Shown in pieces: positions 6,410 to 19,673 of a DNA stretch of 64,000 nucleotides. The notes beneath the pieces are model-generated. The model was not told the DNA's origin. It saw nothing but the letters and a program-made list of their open reading frames with translations, and did not search any database. Source of the DNA: an uncultured Bryobacteraceae bacterium. GTDB taxonomy: Bacteria > Acidobacteriota > Terriglobia > Bryobacterales > Bryobacteraceae. The position numbers and the translations under genes were made by a program. How positions within the stretch are numbered: position 1 is the first letter of the stretch; every line of letters begins with the position of its first letter. Location of the stretch: positions 124,001 to 188,000 of the forward strand of contig CALKXJ010000016.1 in the NCBI GenBank assembly GCA_938003835.1, given 5' to 3'.

Positions 6410-7975
6410 ATGGACCACCTGCTGTCGATCGTCCTCTGGACCCCGCTCGCCGGACTCATCGTTTTGCTGTTCATTCCCTCCTCGAGCGAGCGCGCCATCA
6501 AGATCTGGGCCAACGTCGCCTCCTTCGTCGGCTTTCTCGTCTCGCTGCCCCTCGTCTTCCTCTTCGACCGCACCAAGGACTTCCAGTTCGTCGAAAAGCA
6601 CGACTGGATCCCCTCGATCGGCGCCTCCTATCATCTGGGCATCGACGGCTTCGGGCTGCTGCTGGTGGTGCTGACGGCGCTGCTTGGATTCCTTTCAATC
6701 CTCTCGAGCTGGAGCGCCATCACCGAGCGGTTAAAGGAATACTACGCCCACTTCCTGCTGCTCCAGACGGCCTGCCTGGGCGTGTTCATGGCGCTCGACT
6801 TCTTCCTCTTCTTCGTCTTCTGGGAACTGGTGCTGGTGCCGATGTACTTCATCATCGCCATCTGGGGCGGGGCGCGGCGCGTCTATTCAGCGATCAAGTT
6901 CGTCATCTTCACCCTGTTCGGCTCGGTGCTGATGCTGCTCGGCATCCTGGCGCTCTACTGGCTCCACTACCAGCAGTTCCAGGTGCTCACCTTCGATATT
7001 CAGGAGCTGATGAAGACCCAGCTTGCGCCGGCCGCGCAGTGGTGGATCTTCTGGGCGCTGTTCCTCGGTTTCGCCGTCAAAGTGCCGATGTTCCCGCTGC
7101 ACACCTGGTTGCCGGACGCGCACACGGAGGCGCCCACGGCCGGCTCGGTGATGCTGGCGAGCATCCTGCTCAAGATGGGCACCTACGGCTTCATCCGCTT
7201 CTCGCTGCCGCTGTTGCCCGAGGCGGCCAAGGACCCGGTGGTGGTGCAGACGGTGGCCGCGCTGTCGATCATCGCCATCGTCTACGGCGCTCTGGTCTGC
7301 CTGATGCAGAAGGACTGGAAGAAGCTGGTGGCCTACTCCTCGGTGAGCCACATGGGCTTTTGCACGCTGGGCATCATCGCGCTGAACCCGGCGGGCCTGG
7401 CCGGCTCGATCCTCCAGCAGGTCAACCACGGCATCTCGACCGGGATGCTGTTCTTGATCGTCGGCGTGGTCTATGAACGGCGCCACACGCGGATGATCGC
7501 CGACTACAGCGGCCTGTGGCGCGTCATGCCGGTCTTCACCGTCGTCTTCCTCATCACGGCGCTAAGCTCCATGGGCATGCCTCCGCTCAACGGTTTCATC
7601 GGCGAAATTACGATTCTGCGGGGCGTCTACGAAGTGTCGCTCGGTTGGGCCTTCGCCTGCGTCGCCGGCATCGCGCTCGGGGCGGCCTACCTGATCTGGC
7701 TGTTCCAGCGCACGATGCTCGGCGAGGTCGCCGAAACCAACCGCTCGCTCATGGACTTGAACCGGCGCGAGATCGCCTACTTTGCGCCGCTGTTGGCTTG
7801 CGTGTTCTGGATCGGACTCTACCCGAAGCCGTTCTTCGACATTCTCGAGCGGCCGGTGGCGCAGGTGGTCGAGCGCGTCCAGCCGGGCTACTACGCCGCG
7901 CGGAACCTTCCCAACCCGCTCAGTCCCGCTCCTGCCGCGGCGCTCCGATCTGCACCAGCGGCTCAGGCGCGCTGA
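6410..7975 (+). CDS. nuoM: NADH-quinone oxidoreductase subunit M (proton-pumping antiporter-like subunit)
   Basis: This 521-residue protein has about 14 transmembrane helices and the NuoM hallmarks. FWELVLVPMYFII carries the key Glu of TM5, PLHTWLPDAHTEAPTAGSV holds the conserved Pro and His residues, and LLKMGTYGFIR and KKLVAYSSVSHMGF hold the channel lysines. It would pump protons in the membrane arm of complex I. Normally nuoM sits between nuoL and nuoN, but here no other complex I gene is adjacent: a toxin-antitoxin relic lies upstream and a convergent radical SAM gene downstream. It may be an extra copy, part of a split nuo cluster, or an ion pump in another complex. Its last 56 bases overlap the convergent gene. 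Confidence 0.9.
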   Translation: MDHLLSIVLWTPLAGLIVLLFIPSSSERAIKIWANVASFVGFLVSLPLVFLFDRTKDFQFVEKHDWIPSIGASYHLGIDGFGLLLVVLTALLGFLSILSSWSAITERLKEYYAHFLLLQTACLGVFMALDFFLFFVFWELVLVPMYFIIAIWGGARRVYSAIKFVIFTLFGSVLMLLGILALYWLHYQQFQVLTFDIQELMKTQLAPAAQWWIFWALFLGFAVKVPMFPLHTWLPDAHTEAPTAGSVMLASILLKMGTYGFIRFSLPLLPEAAKDPVVVQTVAALSIIAIVYGALVCLMQKDWKKLVAYSSVSHMGFCTLGIIALNPAGLAGSILQQVNHGISTGMLFLIVGVVYERRHTRMIADYSGLWRVMPVFTVVFLITALSSMGMPPLNGFIGEITILRGVYEVSLGWAFACVAGIALGAAYLIWLFQRTMLGEVAETNRSLMDLNRREIAYFAPLLACVFWIGLYPKPFFDILERPVAQVVERVQPGYYAARNLPNPLSPAPAAALRSAPAAQAR

Positions 7976-8996
7976 GGCGTTCGGGAGGCGTCAGCAGCCG
8001 CCGGGGGAGACGGGCGCGATAGGTCAGCCGCTCGATGATGGGGAGAAGGCGCCGCACGAAGCGCCCGTGGAAGACGAGGCTGCCGACGACGAGCACCGGG
8101 TGAGGGATCGTAGTGACGCAGCGAGCGCAGACGTCGATCTCGCCGGCGCGGCCGGTGGCGTGCAGTCGGCGCATCCGGCGCATCGGCTCGGAGTTCCAGA
8201 TTTCGCCCAAGGTCCGCTCGCCGACGCGCCCGACCGGTTTGCCGTCGAGCGCATAGCTCTGGCAGCAGGGGTAGACGTCTCCGTTCCACTTCACATAGAC
8301 GGGGCCGCGCCAGAGGTAGTGGCAGGGATATTTCCAGTGCTCGGGGGGATGGCCGGCGCCGGGCTGCAACATGGTCGTCTCGTCCTGCTTGATCCGCACC
8401 TGGTCCACCCCCGGCACCGAACGCCAGAACCGCAGGAAATCCTCCACCTCGCCGGCGTTCCGCTCGAGCAGCACCATCTGCACCACCACCTGAATCGGCG
8501 CCCCGCGCTCCTTCTTCATCCGGGCGAACCGCACGAAGTTCTCACGCACCTTCTCGAAGCGCGCCCCCTTGCGGTAGTACTCGAAGGACTCCTTGGTGGC
8601 GCCGTCGAAGCTGAGCGTGATGTGCTCGAGCGGGGAGGCGAGCAGGCGCTCCGCGAGCTTCTCATCGAGCAGCGTCCCGTTGGTCGACAGCAGCGTCGAG
8701 ATGTTGTGCCGGGCGCAATACTCGATGCGGTCGAAGATCTTCGGATCGAGAAACGGCTCGCCCAGCCCGATCAGCATCATGTGTTCGGCGCTCGGAGCGG
8801 CCTCGCGCACCAGGCGCGTGAAGATCTCGTCCGTCATGTCCTCCTTGGGCTGGATGTAGATCTCGCGCGGGCACATCGGGCAGTAGAGGTTGCACTTGGC
8901 GGTGGTCTCGACGATATACTCCACCGGCAGGCCGTCGATGCGCTCGCGCCGCGCAAGGTAAGCCCAGAGGAGTTTGGCCCGGTTCCAGGCGCCCAT
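7920..8996 (-). CDS. Radical SAM/SPASM-domain protein
   Basis: The protein has a radical SAM domain with the cluster motif CNLYCPMC near its N-terminus, then GLGEPFLDP and STNGTLLDE, which are the SAM-binding and barrel motifs. A C-terminal SPASM-like region follows (WNGDVYPCCQ, then CARC) that should hold an auxiliary Fe-S cluster. Such proteins modify peptides or act in cofactor and sugar maturation; no peptide substrate or partner gene is next to it. An ATG at 9011 would add five residues, but a TACAAT (-10-like) box at 9010-9015 overlaps that codon, so I prefer the ATG at 8994-8996. It is divergent from the photolyase and overlaps nuoM tail to tail. Confidence 0.85.
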   Translation of the reverse strand: MGAWNRAKLLWAYLARRERIDGLPVEYIVETTAKCNLYCPMCPREIYIQPKEDMTDEIFTRLVREAAPSAEHMMLIGLGEPFLDPKIFDRIEYCARHNISTLLSTNGTLLDEKLAERLLASPLEHITLSFDGATKESFEYYRKGARFEKVRENFVRFARMKKERGAPIQVVVQMVLLERNAGEVEDFLRFWRSVPGVDQVRIKQDETTMLQPGAGHPPEHWKYPCHYLWRGPVYVKWNGDVYPCCQSYALDGKPVGRVGERTLGEIWNSEPMRRMRRLHATGRAGEIDVCARCVTTIPHPVLVVGSLVFHGRFVRRLLPIIERLTYRARLPRRLLTPPERLSAPEPLVQIGAPRQERD

Positions 8997-9049
8997 GGAC
9001 GTTGCTAACATTGTAGCCGCGCGCGCCGTCCGGGCATCTTTCTTACGTC

Positions 9050-10453
9050 ATGCAGGAGCGGGTGAGGAAGCTCAATGACGCGCCGGAGCGGCCCGGTGGC
9101 CGCTGGGTGCTTTACTGGTCGCAGATGAACCGGCGCGCGGAGGCCAACCACGCGCTGGCCTTCGCCGCGGAACTGGCCAACCGGTCCGATCGGCCGCTGC
9201 TCGTCTACGAGGGGCTCACCTGTTCCTATCCCTACGCCAACGACCGGCTTCACACCTTCATTCTCGAAGGCGTGCCGGAGACGGCGCGGCGGCTCGCCGA
9301 GCTCGGCGCCGGCTATATCTTCTACCTGCGGCGGCGGCATTCCGACCCCGACGACATTCTCTACCGGCTGGCGGCGGAGGCTTCTGCGGTGGTCACCGAT
9401 GACTATCCGACTTTCGTTGCGCGGCGGTACAACGCCTCGGTGCCGGCGAAGATCGGCGTGGCCTACTACGTGGTGGACTCGAGCTGCGTCGTGCCCATGA
9501 ACCGCCACCCGCGGCGCGAGTACGCGGCCTATACCATCCGGCCCAAGATCCGCAAGGCGCTCGCCGAGTGTCTGGTCCCTGCGCCCGAGGTGCGCCTGCG
9601 ACGCCGTTGGAGCCTGCCGCTTCCGGCGTTTCACACCGAAGTCGAGGCCGGGGCCATTCCGGCGCTCGTGGCCTCCTGCGAGATCGATCACGGCGTGAGG
9701 CCGTCAACGGCCTTCCGCGGCGGGCGGGCCGAGGCGCTCAAGCGCCTGGAGCACTTTCTTGAAACCAACCTCGGCCACTACGGGCGTTTGCGCAACGAGC
9801 CGGCCGCGAACGCCACCTCGCGCCTGAGCCCGTATCTGCACTTCGGGCAGATCTCCTCGCTCGAGGTGGCGCTTGCCGCTTCGGGCTACGGCCGCGCACA
9901 CGGACTTTCGGCCGAGGAGTTCCTTGAAGAGCTGATCGTGCGCCGCGAGCTCGCCTTCAATTTCGCCCGCTACACGGATGACTACCAGAGCCTGGCGGTG
10001 TTACCCGACTGGGCGCGGCGGACGCTCGAGCGCCACGCCGGCGACCGGCGGGATCCCGTCTACTCGCGCGAGCAGTTCGAGCAGGCCGCCACGCACGATG
10101 AGCTCTGGAACGCCGCGCAGAAAGAGCTGCTGCTGCGCGGCGTCATTCACGGCTACTACCGCATGTACTGGGGCAAGAAGATCATCGAGTGGTCGCCGAC
10201 GCACGGGGAGGCGCTCGCCACGATGATCTACCTGCATGACCGCTACGCGCTCGACGGCCGCGACCCGAACACCTACACCAACATTCTCTGGTGTTTCGGC
10301 CTGCACGACCGGCCCTGGGCCGAACGGCCGGTTTTCGGCACGGTGCGTTACATGTCGCTCGAGGGCATGCGGCGCAAGACCAACGTCGCCGCCTATGTGC
10401 GCCAGATCGAGCTGCTGGAGCGGACGGGGCTCGATCCGCTTCGCATACAATAG
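9050..10453 (+). CDS. phr: Class II deoxyribodipyrimidine photolyase
   Basis: This 467-residue protein has the usual class II photolyase length. The N-terminal Rossmann part starts VLYWSQMNRRAEANHAL, the diagnostic class II opening, followed by VVTDDYPTF. The C-terminal FAD domain has SPYLHFGQIS, EELIVRRELAFNF, HGYYRMYWGKKI and DPNTYTNILWCFGLHDRPW, motifs that line FAD and the pyrimidine-dimer pocket. It repairs UV-induced cyclobutane dimers using light. The ATG is 53 bases from the divergent radical SAM start. The downstream epimerase-like gene is 33 bases away with its own ribosome site. Confidence 0.95.
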   Translation: MQERVRKLNDAPERPGGRWVLYWSQMNRRAEANHALAFAAELANRSDRPLLVYEGLTCSYPYANDRLHTFILEGVPETARRLAELGAGYIFYLRRRHSDPDDILYRLAAEASAVVTDDYPTFVARRYNASVPAKIGVAYYVVDSSCVVPMNRHPRREYAAYTIRPKIRKALAECLVPAPEVRLRRRWSLPLPAFHTEVEAGAIPALVASCEIDHGVRPSTAFRGGRAEALKRLEHFLETNLGHYGRLRNEPAANATSRLSPYLHFGQISSLEVALAASGYGRAHGLSAEEFLEELIVRRELAFNFARYTDDYQSLAVLPDWARRTLERHAGDRRDPVYSREQFEQAATHDELWNAAQKELLLRGVIHGYYRMYWGKKIIEWSPTHGEALATMIYLHDRYALDGRDPNTYTNILWCFGLHDRPWAERPVFGTVRYMSLEGMRRKTNVAAYVRQIELLERTGLDPLRIQ

Positions 10454-11389: not shown

Positions 11390-12625
11390 GTGCTGCGCCG
11401 CAGGTTGCTGGTCTTCGGCTTCTTCATGGCCGTGATCACCTACCTGGACCGGGTGTGCCTGGCGGCCGCGGCGCCCTCGATCTCGCGCGACCTCGACTTG
11501 AGCCGCACCCAGATGGGTTATGTCTTCGCGGTCTTCGCCCTCGCCTACGCGATCTTCGAGATTCCGGCGGGCTGGTGGGGCGACCGCATCGGACAGCGGC
11601 GGGTGCTGACGCGCATCGTCGCCTGCTGGTCGGTCTTCACCATTCTGACGGGGCTGGTGCGCAGCTATGGGGCGCTCGTGGCCGCCCGCTTCCTCTTCGG
11701 CGCCGCCGAGGCAGGAGCCTTTCCCAACCTCTCGCGCGCGCTCAACCGCTGGTTCCCGCGCACGGAGCGCGCGCGGGCCAACGGGATCATGTGGATGGGG
11801 GCGCGCCTGGGCGGCTCGCTGGCGCCGGTGCTGGCGGCCTGGCTCATCACGCTCGTCGGCTGGCGGATGAGCTTCGTCATCTTCGGACTCACGGGGATCG
11901 TCTGGTGCCTGGCATTCTGGCCCTGGTTCCGCGACGATCCGGCCGAGCATCCGCAGATGACCTCCGGCGAGCTGACCGAGATCCGGCGGGACGCACCCAT
12001 AGCCGCCCCCGCGGTCGCTCACCCCTGGCGGCGGATCTTTTCGAGCGTCAACCTCTGGGCGCTCTTCTGGATGTATTTCTGCTCGGCCTTCGGCTTCTAT
12101 TTCTTCGTCAGTTGGCTGCCCACCTTTCTGACCGAAGAGCATGGCTTGACACTGCTGCGCACCGGCGTCTACGCCACGCTGCCGCTCGGTTTCGGCGCCG
12201 TGGGCTGCCTGGCCGGAGGCGTCCTCTCCGATTGGCTGGTTAAGCGAACGGGCAACGTCCGATGGGCCCGCCGCGCGATCGGCATCGCGGCCTTCGCGCT
12301 GGCGGCGGCGGGTTTTGCGCTGGCCGCTCTGGCGCGCGACCCGCTGGCGGCGGTGCTGTGCCTGGCCTTCGCGCAGCTCGCGCACGATCTGGCGCTGCCA
12401 GTGGCCTGGGCCACGGTGGTGGAGGTCGGCGGGCGGCTCGGCGGCGCCACCGCCGGCTTCATGAACATGGCCTCGAGCGTCTCCGCGATGCTCTCCGCCA
12501 CCGCGGCGCCGTGGCTTGCGGCCACCTTTGGCACCTTCCACGCGATGCTCGCCGCTGCGGCGGTGAGCTATCTCGGCGGCGCGCTGCTCTGGTTGCGGAT
12601 CGATCCGGCGGAGCGGGTCATCTGA
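11390..12625 (+). CDS. MFS transporter, anion:cation symporter-like
   Basis: This 411-residue, 12-helix MFS protein has TM1 VITYLDRVCLAAAAP, the loop 2-3 motif GWWGDRIGQRR and the AEAGAFPNLSRALNRWFP stretch. These are strongly like organic-anion/hexuronate carriers and the paralogue at 704-1915. The GTG start is 6 bases after the epimerase stop. The following gene encodes an arabinose/fucose-isomerase-like enzyme only 24 bases away, which hints at uptake of a sugar or sugar acid used by that enzyme. The solute cannot be read from sequence. Confidence 0.85.
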   Translation: MLRRRLLVFGFFMAVITYLDRVCLAAAAPSISRDLDLSRTQMGYVFAVFALAYAIFEIPAGWWGDRIGQRRVLTRIVACWSVFTILTGLVRSYGALVAARFLFGAAEAGAFPNLSRALNRWFPRTERARANGIMWMGARLGGSLAPVLAAWLITLVGWRMSFVIFGLTGIVWCLAFWPWFRDDPAEHPQMTSGELTEIRRDAPIAAPAVAHPWRRIFSSVNLWALFWMYFCSAFGFYFFVSWLPTFLTEEHGLTLLRTGVYATLPLGFGAVGCLAGGVLSDWLVKRTGNVRWARRAIGIAAFALAAAGFALAALARDPLAAVLCLAFAQLAHDLALPVAWATVVEVGGRLGGATAGFMNMASSVSAMLSATAAPWLAATFGTFHAMLAAAAVSYLGGALLWLRIDPAERVI

Positions 12626-12649: not shown

Positions 12650-14059
12650 ATGCAGGTGAAGGCGAAGGTCGGAGTGTTCGGTATCGGATTGGCCGCCTAC
12701 TGGCCGCAGTTTCCCGGACTGCGGGAGCGGCTGTCGGGCTACCAGAAAGAGCTCGAGAGGCGGCTGGCTGAGATGGCGCAGGTGGTCTCGGCGGAGTTGG
12801 TGGACACGGCGGAAGCGGCGCGCGCGGCCGGCAGTCTTTTTCGGCGCGAGGAGGTCGATCTGGTGTTCTGTTACGTGGGCACCTATGCGACCTCGTCGCA
12901 GGTGTTGCCCGCCGTGCAGCAGGCCGGCGCGCCGGTGGTGGTACTGAATCTACAGCCCACGGCGGCGCTCGACTACGAGCGGACCGACACGGGCGAGTGG
13001 CTGGCTAACTGTTCGGTCTGCTGCGTGCCCGAGATCTCCAACGCCTTCGTGCGCGCGGGGATCGACTTCCAGGTCGTCTCCGGAATGCTGTTCGGCGACG
13101 AGGCCGCCTGGGGCGAGATCAGCGCCTGGTGCCGGGCTGCCGCGGTCGTGCGAGCGCTTCGCCGGGCGCGCATCGGTTTTCTGGGGCACACCTATCCGGG
13201 GATGCTCGACATGTACTCGGACTTCACCATGGTTCACGCCCAGCTTGGCGCGCATGTCGAAGTGCTCGAAATGTGCGACCTGGCCAGGCGGGTGCGCGAG
13301 GCGGGCCCCGGAGAGGTCGAGCGCAAGCTCGAAGAGGCGCGCGCGGTTTTCGAAATCGACTCGAGCGTCGTCGAAGAGGAGCTTGCCTGGGCGGCACAGG
13401 TGGCTTGCGGGCTGGACCGGCTGGTGGCCGACTTCTCACTCGACGGGCTCGCCTACTACTACCGCGGCCTCGACGGTAACGAATACGAGCGGCTGGGCGC
13501 CGGCATGATTCTGGGCAATTCGCTGCTCACCGCTCGCGGCATTCCGGCCAGCGGCGAGGGCGACCTCAAGAATTGCGTCGCCATGATGATGATGGACCGG
13601 CTGGGCGCGGGCGGCTCCTATACGGAGTTTTACGCGATGGACTTCCGGGAGGGCTTCCTCCTGATGGGCCATGACGGGCCGGGGCACATTGCCATCAGCG
13701 ACCGCCGGCCCATCCTGCGCGGCCTGGGGCTTTATCACGGCAAGCGGGGCTGGGGGGTGTCGGTGGAGTTCAACGTGCGCACGGGCCCGGTGACGATTCT
13801 CGGTCTGACCCAGACGCGGGACGGGAAGCTGAAGATGATCGCGGCCGAAGGCGAGTCGCTTGCCGGCCCGATCCTGCGTATCGGCAACACGAACTCGCGC
13901 CTGCGCTTTGCGCTCCCGCCGGCTGAATTCGTCAATCGCTGGTGTGCCGAGGGGCCGACGCACCACTGCGCGCTGGGCGTGGGGCACAAGCTCGGCGAGC
14001 TGCGGAAAGTGGCGCGATTGGCCGGCCTCAGCTTAGCGGAGGTCGGCCTGCCGGGGTAG
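12650..14059 (+). CDS. L-fucose/L-arabinose isomerase-family protein
   Basis: This 469-residue protein belongs to the arabinose/fucose isomerase fold. The N-terminal domain has VGVFGIGLAAYWPQF and the central part FLGHTYPGMLDMYSDF. Likely metal and catalytic motifs are ASGEGDLKN (about residue 302), YTEFYAMD (about 325), GHDGPGHI (about 342) and THHCALG near 440. These correspond to the EGD, SFMEDY-like and HH sites of arabinose isomerase, so it could interconvert an aldose and a ketose in the cytosol. The real sugar is uncertain, because many members act on unknown substrates. A TAGAGT box at 12638-12643 ends 6 bases before the ATG, with no clear ribosome site. Confidence 0.75.
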   Translation: MQVKAKVGVFGIGLAAYWPQFPGLRERLSGYQKELERRLAEMAQVVSAELVDTAEAARAAGSLFRREEVDLVFCYVGTYATSSQVLPAVQQAGAPVVVLNLQPTAALDYERTDTGEWLANCSVCCVPEISNAFVRAGIDFQVVSGMLFGDEAAWGEISAWCRAAAVVRALRRARIGFLGHTYPGMLDMYSDFTMVHAQLGAHVEVLEMCDLARRVREAGPGEVERKLEEARAVFEIDSSVVEEELAWAAQVACGLDRLVADFSLDGLAYYYRGLDGNEYERLGAGMILGNSLLTARGIPASGEGDLKNCVAMMMMDRLGAGGSYTEFYAMDFREGFLLMGHDGPGHIAISDRRPILRGLGLYHGKRGWGVSVEFNVRTGPVTILGLTQTRDGKLKMIAAEGESLAGPILRIGNTNSRLRFALPPAEFVNRWCAEGPTHHCALGVGHKLGELRKVARLAGLSLAEVGLPG

Positions 14060-14083: not shown

Positions 14084-15147
14084 TCACTCCGAAGGGCTCG
14101 CCTCCTGCCCCATTCGAAACACCGCCACCAGGCCCGCTCGATCGCCCGCGAACAGCATCCCTTCGCTGAGCGCAAGAGTAACCATCGTGAAGCGATTCTT
14201 GGAAGGGAGGCGCCACTCCGGAACCCGGAGGGTTCCTGGCTGGGTTCCGTCGCCATCGAGCACGACGACAAGCCGCCCCTGGGTGTAATCGTGAGCGCCA
14301 ATCGCCAGGTAGAGCCTGCCACGTTCCTCGGCTGCGCTCGGGAATACAACCAGCCCGCGAGCTAGTTGGGCAGTCGTGTCCCGACCCGCGTGACTTTCCC
14401 AGGATTCCCAAACCGCCAGGTACCGCGCCCGGGCCACCTCCGCCTCGGGGCCGTGACCCGGACTCTTCTCGCCAAACCGGTTACGGTGCTGACGAGATCG
14501 ATCTCCGCCGTTTCCAGCCATACGGTGGCGAGGCGGTCTTCCGAGAGGCGATGCACCTCGACGCTCAGGGGAAGTTGCTCAACTGCACACTGCTGGCAGG
14601 CCCATACCGCCCCGGTTGACTGTCGCGCCTCGCCGACCTGGTATATCCTGCCATCCCGATTAAGCCCGCCAACACCCTGCGCCGTGGACCAGATGGCGAC
14701 GAGCGGCGCCGGTAGGGTCACGGACTGCACCACGGTCCCGGTCACCGGATCGACTTCCCTCAGGCTGGCTTGCCCGCTGCGCCGATCGACGGCATGAACG
14801 ACAACATGCCCGGCGCTTGTCACCGTGAAGTCCGTCGCTCCCCCGGGCACGGACACCAAAGCCGCTCCCGAGCCCTCGAACGCGCGCGAGGCAATCAGGC
14901 CGGCCAGTCCCCCGTCGCCACCGCCGGCGAAAACCAGCGAGTAAAGCCTGCCCGAGCTGACCAGCATCTTGCTCAGTTGGAGATGGGCCTGCGGCCCAAG
15001 GCCGCTGCTTTCGCGCCTGAGATCGAACGAACCGATAAATTCGACTTGACTCGCCGCGAAGGCATTTTGCCGGAGCACGCTCGAGGCTATCCAGCCGGCG
15101 CAGGCGAGTCCCGCCAACACTCCTATGACGACTCGTTTCTCTGGCAT
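14084..15147 (-). pseudogene. Frameshifted exported beta-propeller-like protein
   Basis: Translation from the ATG at 15147, with GAGGAGG eight bases upstream, gives MPEKRVVIGVLAGLACAG, a signal peptide or membrane anchor. About 230 residues of repeating beta-strand sequence follow (for example RLYSLVFAGGGDGG and VVHAVDRRSGQASLREVDP). At about 14440-14470 the frame changes. The original frame runs on into an Arg-rich, unlikely tail and stops at 14362, while another frame carries ARYLAVWESWESHAGRD and then LYLAIGAHDYTQGRLVVVLD to the stop at 14084. A 1-base indel near a GGCCCC run would explain it. It could be a sequencing error or a true lesion. The protein resembles extracytoplasmic quinoprotein/WD-like propellers, function unknown. 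Confidence 0.6.
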
Positions 15148-15420
15148 GTGACGCGCCTCCTCATTGGCGAAGCATGCCGTGGCGCCGCGGTGCCGCAGGC
15201 TCGAGCATCTCTGGTAGTCCCGAGGTGCAGCACCCACACTTCGGTTGCCCCTCCTGCCCGGGATTTTGTTTGTTGCTCCCCGAACAGCCCAACTATAGAG
15301 CCGCTCCCACAGGTCGAGCCCCTCCATGACTGCAAGGTTATCGATTGCAATGCCAAACTCTTGCAGGATGGTGCAGCCCTATGCGGCCCGGTGCGCGGCG
15401 TCGGCGAGCATTGAGGGGTC

Positions 15421-16548
15421 TCAATCCCGCTCGAAGCGGATCTCGTCAAGCCAGAGGGTGACTCCCTCCGGGGCGTTGGCCCAGTTGGTGGACCAAGCGA
15501 AGCCGCCGATGATGTGCTTCAAGTCCGCCCCCGCGAGATCCACCTCGAACTCCTGCCAGTCGCGGCCGACTTTGGCGGCGAGGCGGCGCCCCTCGCGCAG
15601 GCTGTCGCCGTAGCGCTCGTCGATTCCGCCCACGGTGAACTCGACGCGCACCGGGCGGTCGGCGCGCGCCGCGAACCTCAAGCGCCGGAAGCCGGTGAGG
15701 TTGTAGCCGGCATCCTTGAACCTAGCTTCCGTGCCGAAGTTGTTCGGCGGATGTTGCCAGTAGACGCCCGCCCAGCGACATGGCGGCTGATACGGGCAGG
15801 CGTGCGGGCCCTTGCCTTGCGCCGAATACCGGATGCGAATCGAGGTTTGCCCCGCATACGGCCTCTCTTCGTCGGCCTCCTGGATTTCGATGTCGCCGCA
15901 ATCGCCCATGTAACCGGTTGGACGGAAGTGGTTTTCGGGCGAGGCGGCATCGCGGTAAACGTAGAAGGTCCGGGCCGCCGGCGAAGGAGCCTGGTCGGCT
16001 TCGGAATCGACGTGCCAGGCCGCCCCGATGACGACAATCGCTACGGCGCCGAGCGTCGCCAGGGCTGCCACCAGCCACCGGGGCCACCGCTTCGCCGCCT
16101 TCTCCTCCGCTGGCTCCTCTTCCGTTGGCTCCTTGTCCGCCGGCTGCTCTTCCGCCGACTCCTTCTCCGTTGTTGGCCGGGCACCCTGCGTGTCGCCGGG
16201 CTCGGGCGCCTCACCTAGCAGCTGCGCCAGTTCTCCCTCGGCCCGGAACCGGAAGCCACGCCGCGGGATCGTCTCGATCCATTCCTTGCCGATCAGAGTC
16301 CGTAACTCGGAGATGGCACGCGACAGGTTGGACTCTTCCACATGTACGTTGGGCCAGACGGCCCGCATCAGCTCGTCCTTGTCGAGTACCTGTCCCCGTC
16401 TCTCGAGCAGGATCCGCAGAGTCTCGGCCAGCTTGGGCTGAAGCCGGGTGATCCTCTCGCTCCCCCGGAAAAGCTCGCCGCTCGCCGGATCGAATTGGAA
16501 CCGCCCGAAGCCGTATGCTTTGCGTGGCGCAGGTGAGTCAGGCGTCAT
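15421..16548 (-). CDS. Membrane-bound winged-helix regulator with a periplasmic carbohydrate-binding-like domain
   Basis: This 375-residue one-component regulator has an OmpR/CadC-type winged helix at about residues 12-104 (LQPKLAETLRILLERRG; ISELRTLIGKEWIETIPRRG). An acidic Pro/Glu/Thr linker (105-152) and a single transmembrane helix (about 158-178) follow. The periplasmic domain (about 190-375) resembles a jelly-roll carbohydrate-binding module and ends GGFAWSTNWANAP and LWLDEIRFE. That domain matches the N-terminal module of the exported protein at 16859 (GGFGWVTNARANG, YLDEIRYD). I infer that it senses the same ligand and controls that gene, divergent 92 bases away. The ATG at 16548 has GGGAGGG five bases upstream; a GTG at 16575 lacks one. 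Confidence 0.85.
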   Translation of the reverse strand: MTPDSPAPRKAYGFGRFQFDPASGELFRGSERITRLQPKLAETLRILLERRGQVLDKDELMRAVWPNVHVEESNLSRAISELRTLIGKEWIETIPRRGFRFRAEGELAQLLGEAPEPGDTQGARPTTEKESAEEQPADKEPTEEEPAEEKAAKRWPRWLVAALATLGAVAIVVIGAAWHVDSEADQAPSPAARTFYVYRDAASPENHFRPTGYMGDCGDIEIQEADEERPYAGQTSIRIRYSAQGKGPHACPYQPPCRWAGVYWQHPPNNFGTEARFKDAGYNLTGFRRLRFAARADRPVRVEFTVGGIDERYGDSLREGRRLAAKVGRDWQEFEVDLAGADLKHIIGGFAWSTNWANAPEGVTLWLDEIRFERD

Positions 16549-16640
16549 CGTACCCTCCCGGGGGCCCCGGGGCACATCCCGAAAATTTCTTTCCAGTTTC
16601 CCTCAAGACTTCGGCGCCGGGCTCGGGCCATGCTGCGGGC

Positions 16641-16862
16641 ATGGAGACTACGATGCGTGTTGTCGGGGGGCGCCTTACCTTCTCCGGGTCGAAGTGGAGC
16701 CTAGAGGTGTACGTTCGCGGGTGGCGGCCCGAGCTTGCCCGGCTGTTCCGGGCGGCGCGCGTACAAGGGCTGACCGGGGTTGAAACCCGGATTCGCCTCG
16801 AGGGCATCCGCCCCCTGGTCGAGTTCGAGGTGCTTCCCAAAACTACCGGAGCTCCCGAATGA
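16641..16862 (+). CDS. Small 73-residue protein coupled to the exported glycosidase-like gene
   Basis: The frame starts METTMRVVGGRLTFSG and ends FEVLPKTTGAPE. Its TGA overlaps the ATG of the next gene in an ATGA, so translation of the two is coupled. It has no signal peptide or helix and looks like a small alpha/beta protein (SKWSLEVYVRGWRPELARLF, then TRIRLEGIRPLVEFEVLP). I do not recognise the family. A second ATG at 16653 is possible. It lies directly opposite the regulator start, so it is the first gene of the likely regulated transcript. It may be a regulator, a chaperone, or simply a leader ORF. Confidence 0.5.
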   Translation: METTMRVVGGRLTFSGSKWSLEVYVRGWRPELARLFRAARVQGLTGVETRIRLEGIRPLVEFEVLPKTTGAPE

Positions 16863-18787
16863 GCCCTTATTCTGCCACAACACGATCCGCCCTCGTCCGG
16901 GGATTCGCCCTGGCCGCGGCCCTGCTGGCAGGCGGCGTGGCACAGGGGCAGATCCTGCCGCGGGAAGCGCTGCCACCGGTGAACTACCTGGCCGCCGTCA
17001 TGGACCGTTTCCACCTGCATTTCGACGTCTACTCGGACGCTTTCGCCGCAGGCAACCACTTCCTGGCGCGCGGGCGCATGTCGGGCCCAGGCCACGAAGA
17101 GGCCGTGCCGCCCATGGACGAAGCCTGGACGCTCGAGCCGGCCGGAGGCCTGACCGCGATCCGGGCGCGCTTTGAAGCCCGCGGGGACAACTGGGGCGGC
17201 TGGTACTTCCTGAATGGCGTGCTCCGCCCGCCGGATATGGCGCCGCGGCCGGATTTCGGAAAAGAGCCGGGGGCGGGCGTCGATCTGCGCGGCGCCACCC
17301 GGCTCACCTTTCTCGCGCGGGGAGAGCGCGGCGGCGAGCGCGTCGAGTTCTTCTGTCTGGGTGTCGGACGGGATCCGGCAACCGGCCGGCCGGTGGCACC
17401 CAACCCGGACTCGGACAGGAAAGCCTCGACAGGCTGGGTGACCTTGTCCCGAGACTGGCGGGCGTACTCAATTCCGCTGGCCGGCACGGACCTCGGCTAT
17501 GTCGTCGGCGGCTTCGGGTGGGTAACCAATGCCCGCGCGAACGGCTCTCGCAGCATAACGTTTTATCTGGACGAGATCCGCTACGATAAACCGCGCCTGG
17601 AGGAGCCCCGGTTCCTGGCAAGCTATGAGACCCGCCCTTCGGGCGAAGCCTTCGACGCCGCGCTGCGCAACGCCGCCTTCGTCTATGACAATGCCCTGGC
17701 GCTTCAGGCATTCCTTGCCGCGGGCCGGCGCGACCGCGCCCGGCTGCTCGCCGATGCCTTCCTCATGGCGCTCGACCGCGACCGTTTCTTCGAGGACGGC
17801 CGGATCCGCAATGCCTACCAGGCGGGTGACCTGCTCCTTCCGCCGGGATGGCGGACGCAGCGCGCGGCTCAGGCGGTGCGGCTCCCCGGCTGGTACGATC
17901 CCAGCCGGCGGAGCTGGCTCGAAGACGAATACCAGGTGAGCACGCACGCCGGCAACGTGGCCTGGGTGATGCTCGCCCTGCTCAGTTACTTCGAGGTCGC
18001 CGGCGAGATGCGCGTGCTCCAGGCCGCCGAGCGCATGGGGGAATGGGTGGAGCGCCACTGCCGCGACGCGCGAGGCGCCGGCGGCTACACCGCGGGCTAT
18101 CAAGGCTGGGAGCCGGCGCCGCGGAAGCTTTCCTATAAAGCGACAGAGCACAACATCGATCTGTACGCCGCCTTCCGGCGGCTGCACCTTCTCACGCGCG
18201 ACCCGCGATGGCGCGAAAGCGCCGAACGGGCCAAACGCTTCGTGCTCGCCATGTGGGATGCGCGTGAAGGCAAGTTTTGGACCGGAACCGGCGATGACGG
18301 CGTCACCATCAATCGCTCGGTCATCCCTCTGGACATACAGGCCTGGGCCGTGCTCGCCCTGGACGAGGAGGGCCGGCACTACGCCCGGGCCCTGGCCTAC
18401 GCCGAAAAGCACCACCGCGCCGGTGAGGGTTTCGACTTCAACGAGGACCGCGATGGCGTCTGGTACGAGGGGACCGCCCAGCTTGCGCTCGCTTTCCGCC
18501 ACGCCGGGCAGGAGGGGAAGTGGCGCGCTCTTTTGAACCTGCTCCGTTCGGCCCGGGATCCCTCCGGCGGACTTCCCGCCGCCTCCCGCGACCGGCTGAC
18601 CACGGGATTCTTCCTCGCAACGGGCGAGCCCTGGTACTACTACAACCGGCTGCATGTGGGCGCGACGGCCTGGCTTGTGCTGGCCGAGCTCGGAGTCAAC
18701 CCGTTTGCGCCCTTCAAGCCTGCCGGAGCTCAAGCGGTACGGCTGTTGCTTCAGGCCGCCAGCCCGTCGAGCACGCCGCGCATGTAA
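16859..18787 (+). CDS. Exported alpha/alpha-barrel glycoside-hydrolase-like protein with N-terminal binding module
   Basis: This 642-residue protein has a signal peptide (residues 1-30, ending GGVAQGQ). A jelly-roll, CBM-like module follows (about 85-245: NWGGWYFLNG; WVTLSRDWRAYSIPLAGTDL; GGFGWVTNA; YLDEIRYD). The rest is a helical-toroid domain (about 265-615) with repeated helices such as HAGNVAWVMLALLSYFEV, KATEHNIDLYAAFRRLH, VIPLDIQAWAVLAL, VWYEGTAQLALAF and PWYYYNRLHVGATAW. This shape is typical of (alpha/alpha)6 glycosidases or lyases, but I cannot assign a family. WYEGT and YKATEHNIDLY may hold acidic catalytic residues. Its N-terminal module is shared with the divergent regulator at 15421-16548. 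The last 37 bases overlap the convergent isomerase gene. Confidence 0.75.
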   Translation: MSPYSATTRSALVRGFALAAALLAGGVAQGQILPREALPPVNYLAAVMDRFHLHFDVYSDAFAAGNHFLARGRMSGPGHEEAVPPMDEAWTLEPAGGLTAIRARFEARGDNWGGWYFLNGVLRPPDMAPRPDFGKEPGAGVDLRGATRLTFLARGERGGERVEFFCLGVGRDPATGRPVAPNPDSDRKASTGWVTLSRDWRAYSIPLAGTDLGYVVGGFGWVTNARANGSRSITFYLDEIRYDKPRLEEPRFLASYETRPSGEAFDAALRNAAFVYDNALALQAFLAAGRRDRARLLADAFLMALDRDRFFEDGRIRNAYQAGDLLLPPGWRTQRAAQAVRLPGWYDPSRRSWLEDEYQVSTHAGNVAWVMLALLSYFEVAGEMRVLQAAERMGEWVERHCRDARGAGGYTAGYQGWEPAPRKLSYKATEHNIDLYAAFRRLHLLTRDPRWRESAERAKRFVLAMWDAREGKFWTGTGDDGVTINRSVIPLDIQAWAVLALDEEGRHYARALAYAEKHHRAGEGFDFNEDRDGVWYEGTAQLALAFRHAGQEGKWRALLNLLRSARDPSGGLPAASRDRLTTGFFLATGEPWYYYNRLHVGATAWLVLAELGVNPFAPFKPAGAQAVRLLLQAASPSSTPRM

Positions 18788-19578
18788 GCGATCGAGCGGA
18801 TCATGCCCGGTAGCGGATCGTCGGCGTCGATTTCATATTCGAGCATCACGCCGCCCTGATAGTTCATTGCCCGCAGCTCGCGCAGGATCGCCACCACGGG
18901 CATGGCGCCGTCGCCCACCGGGCAGTCCGAGCCCCGCTGCATGAGGTCTTTGAGGTCCTTGATGTGGACGTCCAACAGGCGCGGGCCCGCCCGGCGGATC
19001 CACTCGACGACGTTCGCTCCGGTGCGCGCCGTATGGCCCACGTCGAGACACAGCCCCATGCGCGGGTCGCGATTCTTGACGGCTTCGAGGACGCTCTCCG
19101 GGGTCGGGAAGTGGCGGTCCTCCGGCCCGTGATTGTGGATGGCGGTCTTGATGTTGTATTCGCCGACGAGCTTTTCGACCGCATCGAGCGTGGCGTGGCT
19201 CGGCGCGCAGACCATCATCGGCATCCCGCACTCTCTGGCGTAGTCGAACATGGCGCGCAGCTCGGCCGGCCTGGTGAGATCGATGTTGCCGCCGCTCAGG
19301 ATGACGAGGCCGGCGTCGCGGAACTCCTGCGCGCCGCGCCGGAGCTCCTCGGGAGGCGCCTCGTAGGGCAGATGGAAGCTCTTGATGCTGACGTAGCGCA
19401 CGCCGAGCCGGGTGAGCATCCGGATCGCCTCGGCGCGCGAAAACTTGCGGAGCGAATACGTCGCCACTCCCAGCCGCAGCTCGCCGGGCGCCGTCCGTTC
19501 GGCAGCCTCGCCGAAACCCGGCGCCATGCCCGCGGCCGCGGCCGCACTCAGGAAATCTCGCCGTCTCAAGATCCGCAT
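18751..19578 (-). CDS. Exported TIM-barrel sugar phosphate isomerase/epimerase-like protein
   Basis: The protein begins RILRRRDFLSAAAAAGM, a Tat-type signal. A xylose-isomerase-like TIM barrel follows, with GVATYSLRKFSR, YVSIKSFHLP, TAIHNHGPED, GLCLDVGHTARTG, LLDVHIKDLK and VMLEYEIDAD. The His, Asp and Glu residues in the last four are the expected divalent-metal ligands. Family members isomerise or epimerise sugars, or cleave inositols; export implies a periplasmic role or a folded-cofactor export route. The ATG at 19578 has AAGGGGGA just upstream and is preferred over a start 24 bases earlier. The gene is convergent with the exported glycosidase-like gene, overlapping by 37 bases. Confidence 0.85.
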   Translation of the reverse strand: MRILRRRDFLSAAAAAGMAPGFGEAAERTAPGELRLGVATYSLRKFSRAEAIRMLTRLGVRYVSIKSFHLPYEAPPEELRRGAQEFRDAGLVILSGGNIDLTRPAELRAMFDYARECGMPMMVCAPSHATLDAVEKLVGEYNIKTAIHNHGPEDRHFPTPESVLEAVKNRDPRMGLCLDVGHTARTGANVVEWIRRAGPRLLDVHIKDLKDLMQRGSDCPVGDGAMPVVAILRELRAMNYQGGVMLEYEIDADDPLPGMIRSIAYMRGVLDGLAA

Positions 19579-19673
19579 CGGTCCCCCTTGCCTCCTTCCC
19601 ACTGTAGATCAGAAAATTGCTTGCGCCATGCGCTACCGTCTACGCTAAGAAGAAGCACGAACGGGACCATGAA

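Follow-up and report, generated by a model that had tools for sequence, protein, structure and literature searches.

A ToxR/CadC-type transmembrane regulator with a carbohydrate-binding-like sensor module related to that of a neighbouring exported enzyme-like protein

The window, a stretch of 64,000 nucleotides from an uncultured Bryobacteraceae bacterium, carries two divergent neighbours: a gene for a membrane-spanning winged-helix regulator and, beyond a small open reading frame (ORF), a gene for an exported enzyme-like protein (Table 1). The original prediction placed 92 bases between the two starts. The divergent arrangement holds, but those 92 bases reach the 73-codon ORF; the first in-frame enzyme start is at 16859, 310 bases from the regulator, and an enzyme start only 92 bases away was rejected because position 16641 belongs to another frame. 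The small ORF has a coding-like GC content by codon position (0.69/0.53/0.74), a single marginal match (E 0.0036) among 60 other genomes, and no relatives in the examined loci of the enzyme homologues. Repeat and promoter scans of the 92 bases gave no convincing repeat, operator or sigma-70 promoter.

Table 1. Features of the regulator-enzyme locus (positions in the window).
Feature	Position	Strand	Description	Basis
Regulator	15421..16548	-	375 aa; winged helix, acidic linker, one TM helix, extracytoplasmic module	ORF and translation
CBM-like sensor module of regulator	15427..15984	-	residues 189-374	profile, AlphaFold2, Cys positions
Single TM helix of regulator	16018..16074	-	residues 159-177	Kyte-Doolittle 2.54
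Winged-helix DNA-binding domain of regulator	16240..16515	-	about residues 12-103	Pfam Trans_reg_C, phmmer
Divergent intergenic region, candidate operator region	16549..16640	.	92 b, regulator start to 73-codon ORF	
Small ORF	16641..16862	+	73 aa; 4 b overlap with enzyme start	coding-like GC by codon position
Exported enzyme-like protein	16859..18787	+	642 aa; signal peptide (by eye), module, alpha/alpha barrel	ORF; homologues aligned (A2)
Module of enzyme	17003..17593	+	residues 49-245	BLASTP to regulator module, profile match, model
Alpha/alpha-barrel-like putative catalytic region of enzyme	17606..18703	+	about residues 250-615	profile match, sub-threshold Pfam GH127

Regulators of the CadC/ToxR type consist of an N-terminal Trans_reg_C winged helix, a linker, one TM helix and a C-terminal extracytoplasmic sensor. 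The regulator in the window has the same domain order, bearing out the one-protein layout that had been proposed for it. Residues 34-101 match Pfam Trans_reg_C (PF00486; 7.3e-11, 42.4 bits against a cut-off of 26.2), and phmmer matches the winged helix to the DNA-binding domains of ToxR (1.4e-7) and CadC (1.6e-6). The TM helix, preceded by basic and followed by acidic residues, is the sole segment over threshold in a Kyte-Doolittle hydropathy scan, which is not a trained predictor. C-terminal to it lies the sensor module, which holds all three cysteines of the protein (217, 251 and 257) and matches its own profile at an iE of 5.8e-74, the profile containing this sequence. Comparison with 21 other modules gives 57 conserved columns, of which this module keeps 41, and so it does not look degenerate. 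With E-values up to 10 admitted, a Pfam scan returned Trans_reg_C and two sub-threshold matches in the TM region and nothing else, no RsgI domain being among them. Whereas CadC and ToxR sense with periplasmic domains of their own, this regulator carries a CBM-like jelly roll instead, and it scores 39.4 bits against the NCBIfam CadC equivalog (NF007540), whose cut-off is 400. The nearest winged helices (46-54% identity) belong to L027-L031, winged-helix/TM proteins from the same bacterial family as the window. Towards the C-terminus these proteins carry other domains, some of which look TolB-like by eye, and none carries the module.

The family profile of the enzyme-like protein matches cellobiose 2-epimerase (1.4e-5) and GH76 (0.0066), while the protein itself (P0002) reaches 13.9 bits against Pfam GH127, sub-threshold for a cut-off of 24.9. 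Among eight enzyme homologues the best E-values are 1.1e-4 for GH127, 0.0033 for GH76 and 0.0034 for AGE; in the Pfam scan the enzyme does not rise above the family cut-off for any of the three. Its structural model is of low confidence (pLDDT 62 overall, with a low barrel part) and matched GH76, GH78 and AGE at weak E-values.

The modules of the regulator and the enzyme belong to the same carbohydrate-binding-like domain family. They had been lined up by eye, and BLASTP aligns regulator residues 195-374 with enzyme residues 55-244 (72 of 204 columns identical, 35%, E 3e-22), an alignment that takes in all three motif pairs singled out earlier. The Smith-Waterman score of the two modules is 229, against a mean of 33 and a maximum of 70 for 2000 shuffles of the enzyme module; the barrel part of the enzyme scores 42 against the regulator module. 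The enzyme module begins earlier than had been thought, at about residue 50 rather than 85. Across the entire 5.0-Mb genome, these divergent neighbours carry the only strong copies, with a third, weak copy at G000:C6:1049 (E 1.8e-5).

The regulator module is predicted by AlphaFold2 to be a jelly roll, or beta-sandwich (pLDDT 86). The nearest solved structure is CBM11 (1v0a; VIA Z 14.1, rmsd 2.9, 147 residues aligned), with CBM30 at Z 12.8, and the top Foldseek ranks are mostly CBM11, CBM30, CBM4, CBM22 and CBM29. The first match of the enzyme model is also CBM11, which supports one predicted fold for both modules. Non-carbohydrate domains share the fold as well (FlaA1 flagellar sheath protein, complex I assembly factor, MAM-type), and one protein of each of these kinds stands among the top Foldseek ranks. 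The module resembles CBM11 (of CtLic26A-Cel5E), CBM30, CBM4 and CBM22 in fold, at a sequence identity of 13-14%. Pfam CBM_11 gives no match to the regulator module and matches two of 12 module members below its cut-off (best E 0.02). L010 reaches 23.1 bits and L074 19 bits against a cut-off of 27, and the module stays under the Pfam CBM cut-offs in every protein scanned. Profile matches to a solved CBM are weak (E 0.0038 with alignment A1, 0.051 with the wider A3).

Kinship within one family does not make the two modules sisters. In a tree computed without L132 and L133, the regulator module groups with that of L004, a GH17-like Phycisphaerae protein (support 100/99; 60% identity over 175 columns, its nearest), while the enzyme module groups with modules of its own enzyme type. 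A clade of the regulator and window enzyme modules is rejected at p-AU 1.2e-11 and one of the regulator with all enzyme modules at 0.003, values that are somewhat optimistic because the tested clades were named from a preliminary quick tree. The L004 grouping and the rejected joint clade rule out local duplication of the module between the neighbours. L132 and L133, which like L004 carry the module at the C-terminus, have the same Cys-bearing insert as the regulator module; all three are secreted GH17-like proteins, whereas the protein in the window is a regulator. It is best read as a one-component transcription factor that spans the membrane and has the ToxR/CadC architecture, with a sensor recruited from a glucanase-type module. 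The conserved loop also differs, reading WAGVYWQHP in the regulator and WGG.YF.NG-like, with an insertion, in the enzyme branch. Given separate branches and separate loops, the original suggestion that both modules bind the same ligand is not supported.

In other genomes the module occurs on a variety of proteins, carbohydrate-active ones among them. L010, L131 (Chlorohelix) and L130 (Haliscomenobacter) exceed the Pfam GH17 cut-off, which L004 and L133, though GH17-like, do not reach; L132 has no Pfam match, yet its first 344 residues are identical to L004 at 159 of 285 positions. GH2_C is found in L069 and L074, and further modules are attached to alpha/alpha-barrel proteins. A Ser/Thr kinase of a Phycisphaerae relative has a TM helix at 369-387 and the module at 771-937, so that with respect to the membrane the module sits where it does in the regulator. 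Elusimicrobiota-type genomes are rich in modules that are secreted on their own, in short ones anchored by a TM segment and in fusions with OmpA, the OmpA part scoring above cut-off in L005, L011, L116 and L119. Viral contigs contributed eight loci, all stand-alone secreted-type ORFs, with no confirmed enzyme relatives, and two of 72,556 plasmid records carry the module.

Seven profile searches comprising 1,785 genome look-ups, in overlapping sets, revealed no second winged-helix/module fusion among the matches inspected. In the window's own family, 237 genomes were searched; four others have the module, none of them in such a fusion. Eight further enzyme homologues (G536, G124 twice, G294, G427, G906 twice and G1499) likewise had no winged helix in the adjoining DNA examined, which covered at least 1.1 kb upstream for six of the eight and 440 bases for G536, one G906 copy lying at a contig end. 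That neighbourhood scan considered ORFs of at least 70 codons with at most 20 X and covered L033 in part. A further 18 module-match stretches, selected largely because their open frames were longer, contained no winged helix, several short frames (mostly <300 aa) falling outside. As far as searched, related genomes show no conserved pairing, an outcome that the original prediction had named as refuting it. On this evidence the fusion is lineage-specific and known from this genome only, which does not in itself show that it lacks a function. In the open-access literature, none of the matches listed describes a winged-helix regulator that senses through a CBM.

Most known polysaccharide sensing takes at least two proteins, as in hybrid two-component systems and anti-sigma/sigma pairs. 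A precedent is offered by the RsgI anti-sigma factors of Clostridium thermocellum. RsgI1-6 bear outer CBMs at their C-terminus, so that there too a carbohydrate-binding module belongs to a regulator that spans the membrane and governs genes for polysaccharide breakdown, and RsgI3/SigI3 connects a pectin-binding module to pectinase promoters (PMC4711584). RsgI works through a cognate sigma-I factor, whereas the regulator in the window has its DNA-binding domain fused directly; the outer RsgI modules (CBM3, PA14, GH10) are also unlike its own.

An outer module shared with the adjacent exported enzyme suggests that one protein may both sense a polysaccharide and switch on the gene for digesting it. 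The explanation of the whole locus favoured on balance, at somewhat better than even confidence, is that the CBM-like sensor binds polysaccharide and the winged helix activates the adjacent small ORF-enzyme operon. The sensor, a jelly roll of the kind otherwise seen on GH17-like secreted proteins, would bind polysaccharide or its fragments in the periplasm, with beta-glucan as the best guess. Binding might be relayed through the single TM helix as a change in dimerisation or conformation, upon which the cytoplasmic winged helix would activate the divergent operon. What the analysis establishes is the domain content, the predicted fold, the kinship of the modules and the order of the genes. Ligand binding, ligand identity and the direction of regulation are inferred here, as is the target: going by position, the adjacent enzyme is probably what the regulator controls.

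The regulon might instead lie elsewhere, in the regulator's own gene only or in distant glucanase genes, with the enzyme a bystander binding a different glycan. The different branches and loops of the two modules, the 73-codon ORF between the genes, and the enzyme homologues of other genomes that have no such regulator in the neighbouring DNA examined all speak for this possibility. It is nevertheless judged unlikely, since the genome's only two strong module copies are divergent neighbours and module-bearing genes cluster in other genomes too. Searches of the Phycisphaerae phylum and class found two module genes within 2 kb in 10 of 14 genomes with at least two separate copies. Such adjacency is a habit of the module family, and so counts for less in favour of regulation than an estimate from random placement would imply.

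Less probable again is a regulator module without a free ligand, anchoring to the cell's own surface polysaccharide or serving as a dimerisation or protein-contact domain, so that the signal would be the state of the envelope. The stand-alone, TM-anchored and OmpA-fused modules of Elusimicrobiota-type genomes point to a function at the envelope for some members of the family, and the fold is also found in non-CBM proteins, but the regulator's branch is carried by a GH17-like protein and no envelope protein, and the regulator module retains most of the conserved columns. That the fusion is a recent recombination accident without a working sensor function is very improbable: it was seen in just one of the searched genomes, but its frame is open at full length with coding-like GC by codon position (0.68/0.51/0.81), and winged helix, TM helix and module are intact, the conserved columns largely kept.

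Returning to the reading of the regulator as a polysaccharide sensor, the protein could represent a new class of one-component sensor, in which a carbohydrate-binding-type module of glucanase origin is joined through one membrane span to a winged helix, as a single-protein counterpart of RsgI/SigI, the module having been recruited separately by the Ser/Thr kinase of the Phycisphaerae group. This proposal is tentative and held with somewhat more doubt than belief. The module family spans GH17-like, GH2_C-type, alpha/alpha-barrel, OmpA, kinase and winged-helix proteins, with no above-cut-off Pfam match to the module where scanned, and its separate recruitment in the kinase would make it a reusable polysaccharide antenna. 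If one membrane protein does read a glycan and bind DNA, it would form the simplest polysaccharide-sensing circuit, and one that could be used as a glycan biosensor.

A divergent gene pair at about 16.6 kb of the window encodes two proteins that share an extracytoplasmic CBM-like domain (the module): a membrane regulator and an exported, enzyme-like protein. The winged helix of the regulator corresponds to Pfam Trans_reg_C (residues 34-101, 7.3e-11) and its single hydrophobic helix spans residues 159-177. The 92 bases originally taken as the spacing between the two genes were wrong. A small ORF in another frame begins at 16641 and runs 4 bases into the enzyme gene, whose start lies 310 bases from that of the regulator. 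The base composition of this ORF is coding-like; among 60 other genomes it has one marginal match (E 0.0036, G023) and no clear relatives.

Features of the divergent locus and its sugar-related surroundings (window positions)
Feature	Position	Strand	Description
MFS transporter	11390-12622		
Sugar-isomerase-like gene	12650-14056		
Regulator	15421-16548	-	375 aa: winged helix, acidic linker, one hydrophobic helix, C-terminal module
Small ORF	16641-16862	+	73 codons, frame differs from enzyme
Enzyme	16859-18787	+	642 aa: signal peptide (by eye), module (about 49-245), alpha-helical C-terminal part
Xylose-isomerase-like TIM barrel	18754-19602		

The original prediction aligned the two modules by eye, and this alignment proved right, far beyond chance: BLASTP gives 35% identity over 204 columns (E 3e-22), and the alignment score of 229 compares with values never above 70 in 2000 shuffles. 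The common module is a real and clean observation, while its earlier interpretation was right in part. Pfam and NCBIfam place no family at or above its cut-off in the module. The regulator module is predicted to form a beta sandwich (pLDDT 86, pTM 0.84) for which Foldseek ranks CBM11, CBM30, CBM22, a flagellar sheath protein, CBM4 and CBM29 first. VIA-align 2 likewise begins with CBM11 (1v0a; Z 14.1, rmsd 2.9, 147 residues), followed by CBM8, a mannanase with CBM, an exo-agarase and CBM30. The enzyme, modeled separately, has a pLDDT of 62 overall, with ten-residue blocks of its module mostly at 72-97 and loops down to 47. CBM11 is again the first structural match, and the structural comparison that had been proposed as a check thus returns the same predicted fold, a CBM-type jelly roll, for both modules. 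In a PDB profile search, an engineered xylan-binding CBM4-2 chain was matched at E 0.0038 with the module profile A1, though only at 0.051 with the wider A3, an alignment of 19 modules from the window and related loci found by search. Because the same fold is known in non-carbohydrate proteins, we go no further than to infer carbohydrate binding from the models.

Of 99 modules extracted, 73 entered a quick tree after 26 stand-alone modules from the Elusimicrobia phylum (two of every three) were left out; a careful tree comprised 29. In the latter, the regulator module groups with that of L004, a GH17-like Phycisphaerae protein (support 100/99; 60% identity), and the enzyme module falls among eight enzyme-type modules (100/99). 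AU tests on groups chosen from the quick tree, whose p values are somewhat optimistic for that reason, reject a joint window clade made up of the regulator and enzyme modules (p-AU 1.2e-11) and also a clade uniting the regulator with every enzyme-type module (p-AU 0.003). Since the regulator module pairs with L004 and the joint window clade is rejected, it is, judged from its sequence, no copy of its neighbour's module and of the GH17-associated kind. A Cys-bearing insert is common to the regulator, where Cys 217, 251 and 257 are the only cysteines, to L004 and to two related proteins outside the careful tree (L132 and L133). A set of 57 conserved columns was defined from 21 other modules (conservation of 80% or more); 41 of these are preserved in the regulator and 36 in the enzyme. 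The regulator retains the family loop WAGVYWQHP, where the enzyme type has a WGG.YF.NG-like loop and an insertion instead, a difference that weakens the proposal that both modules bind the same ligand. They may still recognize related polysaccharides.

On named contigs, the module occurs at eight loci, in records from Phycisphaerae, Elusimicrobia/Endomicrobia, Spirochaetes and Chloroflexi. Whole-genome searches with A1 (1,785 look-ups in overlapping sets, the window's own genome counted where part of the set) matched 11 of 396 genomes in the window's phylum (E 1e-3), and 5 of 250 in its order and 5 of 237 in its family (both 1e-5). Matches were found in 12 of 294 genomes for the phylum of the Phycisphaerae record (1e-8), 34 of 258 for its class (1e-10), 1 of 201 for the Chloroflexi phylum (1e-8) and 37 of 149 for the Elusimicrobia phylum (1e-8). 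Part of the matches from the Elusimicrobia-phylum and Phycisphaerae-class searches was examined as loci, plus 18 further stretches.

The module appears in stand-alone secreted form, with an alpha/alpha barrel (the enzyme-type architecture), and in GH17 proteins either above the cut-off (L010, L130, L131) or, as GH17-like proteins, below it or without a Pfam match (L004, L133, L132); the enzyme parts of L132 and L133 are 52-56% identical to L004. It is C-terminal on GH2_C-type proteins (assigned by Pfam for L069 and L074, and by eye for similar ones) and fused to OmpA in L005, L011, L116 and L119. Plasmid pHALHY02 of Haliscomenobacter hydrossis carries four module ORFs close together (L130 4824-10465), one annotated GH17. 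Elusimicrobiota-type genomes have short TM-anchored modules; frequently, several single-module proteins, either secreted or TM-anchored, are encoded close together along with a module-OmpA fusion (L005 5866-9352; L160-L165, L171-L177), a putative surface system. In a Ser/Thr kinase (L088, 7273-10086 (-), G884), a single TM helix and TPR repeats accompany the module, which is placed at the outer C-terminal end and forms a long branch in the tree; this is apparently a second sensor use. In L089 (G454), the gene of a TM/coiled-coil protein with the module (8859-9980 (-)) overlaps a GH17-like gene (6481-8859 (-)) that also bears the module; beyond these two genes is an ORF that looks kinase-like by eye.

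The two strong copies in the 5.0-Mb window genome are neighbours, an arrangement expected at random about 5 times in 10,000 given roughly 4,300 genes (estimated from genome size). Elsewhere in that genome, a 921-aa ORF with a weak partial module match (E 1.8e-5; L041 944-3709 (+), G000:C6) adjoins groES/groEL-like ORFs (by eye). In the Phycisphaerae phylum and class searches, 10 of 14 genomes with at least two separate copies have two within 2 kb; the 14 derive from 16 genomes with at least two matches, two of which have both in one ORF, and in one of the ten (G1351) one copy is a 72-aa fragment. Such clustering fits proteins acting on one polymer, and because it is general, adjacency in the window becomes less special. 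The paired occurrence sought in related genomes was absent: none of the eight other enzyme homologues has an adjacent winged helix in the DNA examined, two having little or no upstream DNA, and the family search (237 genomes) gave no genome of the window's genus besides its own among the matches. The regulator-enzyme pairing is therefore unique among the genomes searched. Nor was another winged-helix-module fusion present among the matches examined from the 1,785 overlapping look-ups. A winged-helix profile run over ORFs of the retrieved loci, setting aside the window protein and loci chosen for their winged helix, found one further ORF only, which is response-regulator-like (L005:9803-10732).

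A plausible mechanism is that a ligand would enter the periplasm, or be present there as fragments from secreted glycanases, and bind the module; the TM helix would pass the change on to the winged helix, which would act on the divergent operon. By analogy with CadC/ToxR, the direction is taken to be activation, and both ligand and target of the regulator are putative. The GH17-like partner in the regulator's branch and CBM11 as nearest predicted fold suggest a beta-glucan. The sugar-isomerase-like, MFS and xylose-isomerase-like neighbours provide a loose sugar context. On the minus strand, ORF 14365-15327 overlaps ORF 14084-14521, and by eye the two appear to form a single gene (14084-15327) with a broken reading frame; a Pfam scan of 14365-15327 (-) gave no match.

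In the literature searched, no winged-helix regulator with a CBM sensor, and no kinase with a carbohydrate-binding sensor in Planctomycetes, was described among the matches listed, and sections of PMC3174227 hold nothing on a winged-helix/CBM-sensor architecture. Another beta-sandwich family has been proposed as stand-alone sugar sensors, according to an excerpt (PMC2739507). As outlined in sections of PMC4711584, RsgI anti-sigma factors combine outer C-terminal CBMs with a cytoplasmic portion expected to bind sigma-I, and the pectin-binding RsgI3 goes with sigma-I3-driven pectinase genes. An outer CBM serving as sensor for a membrane regulator thus has a precedent in RsgI. What sets the window regulator apart is that its CBM-like sensor is fused to a winged helix.
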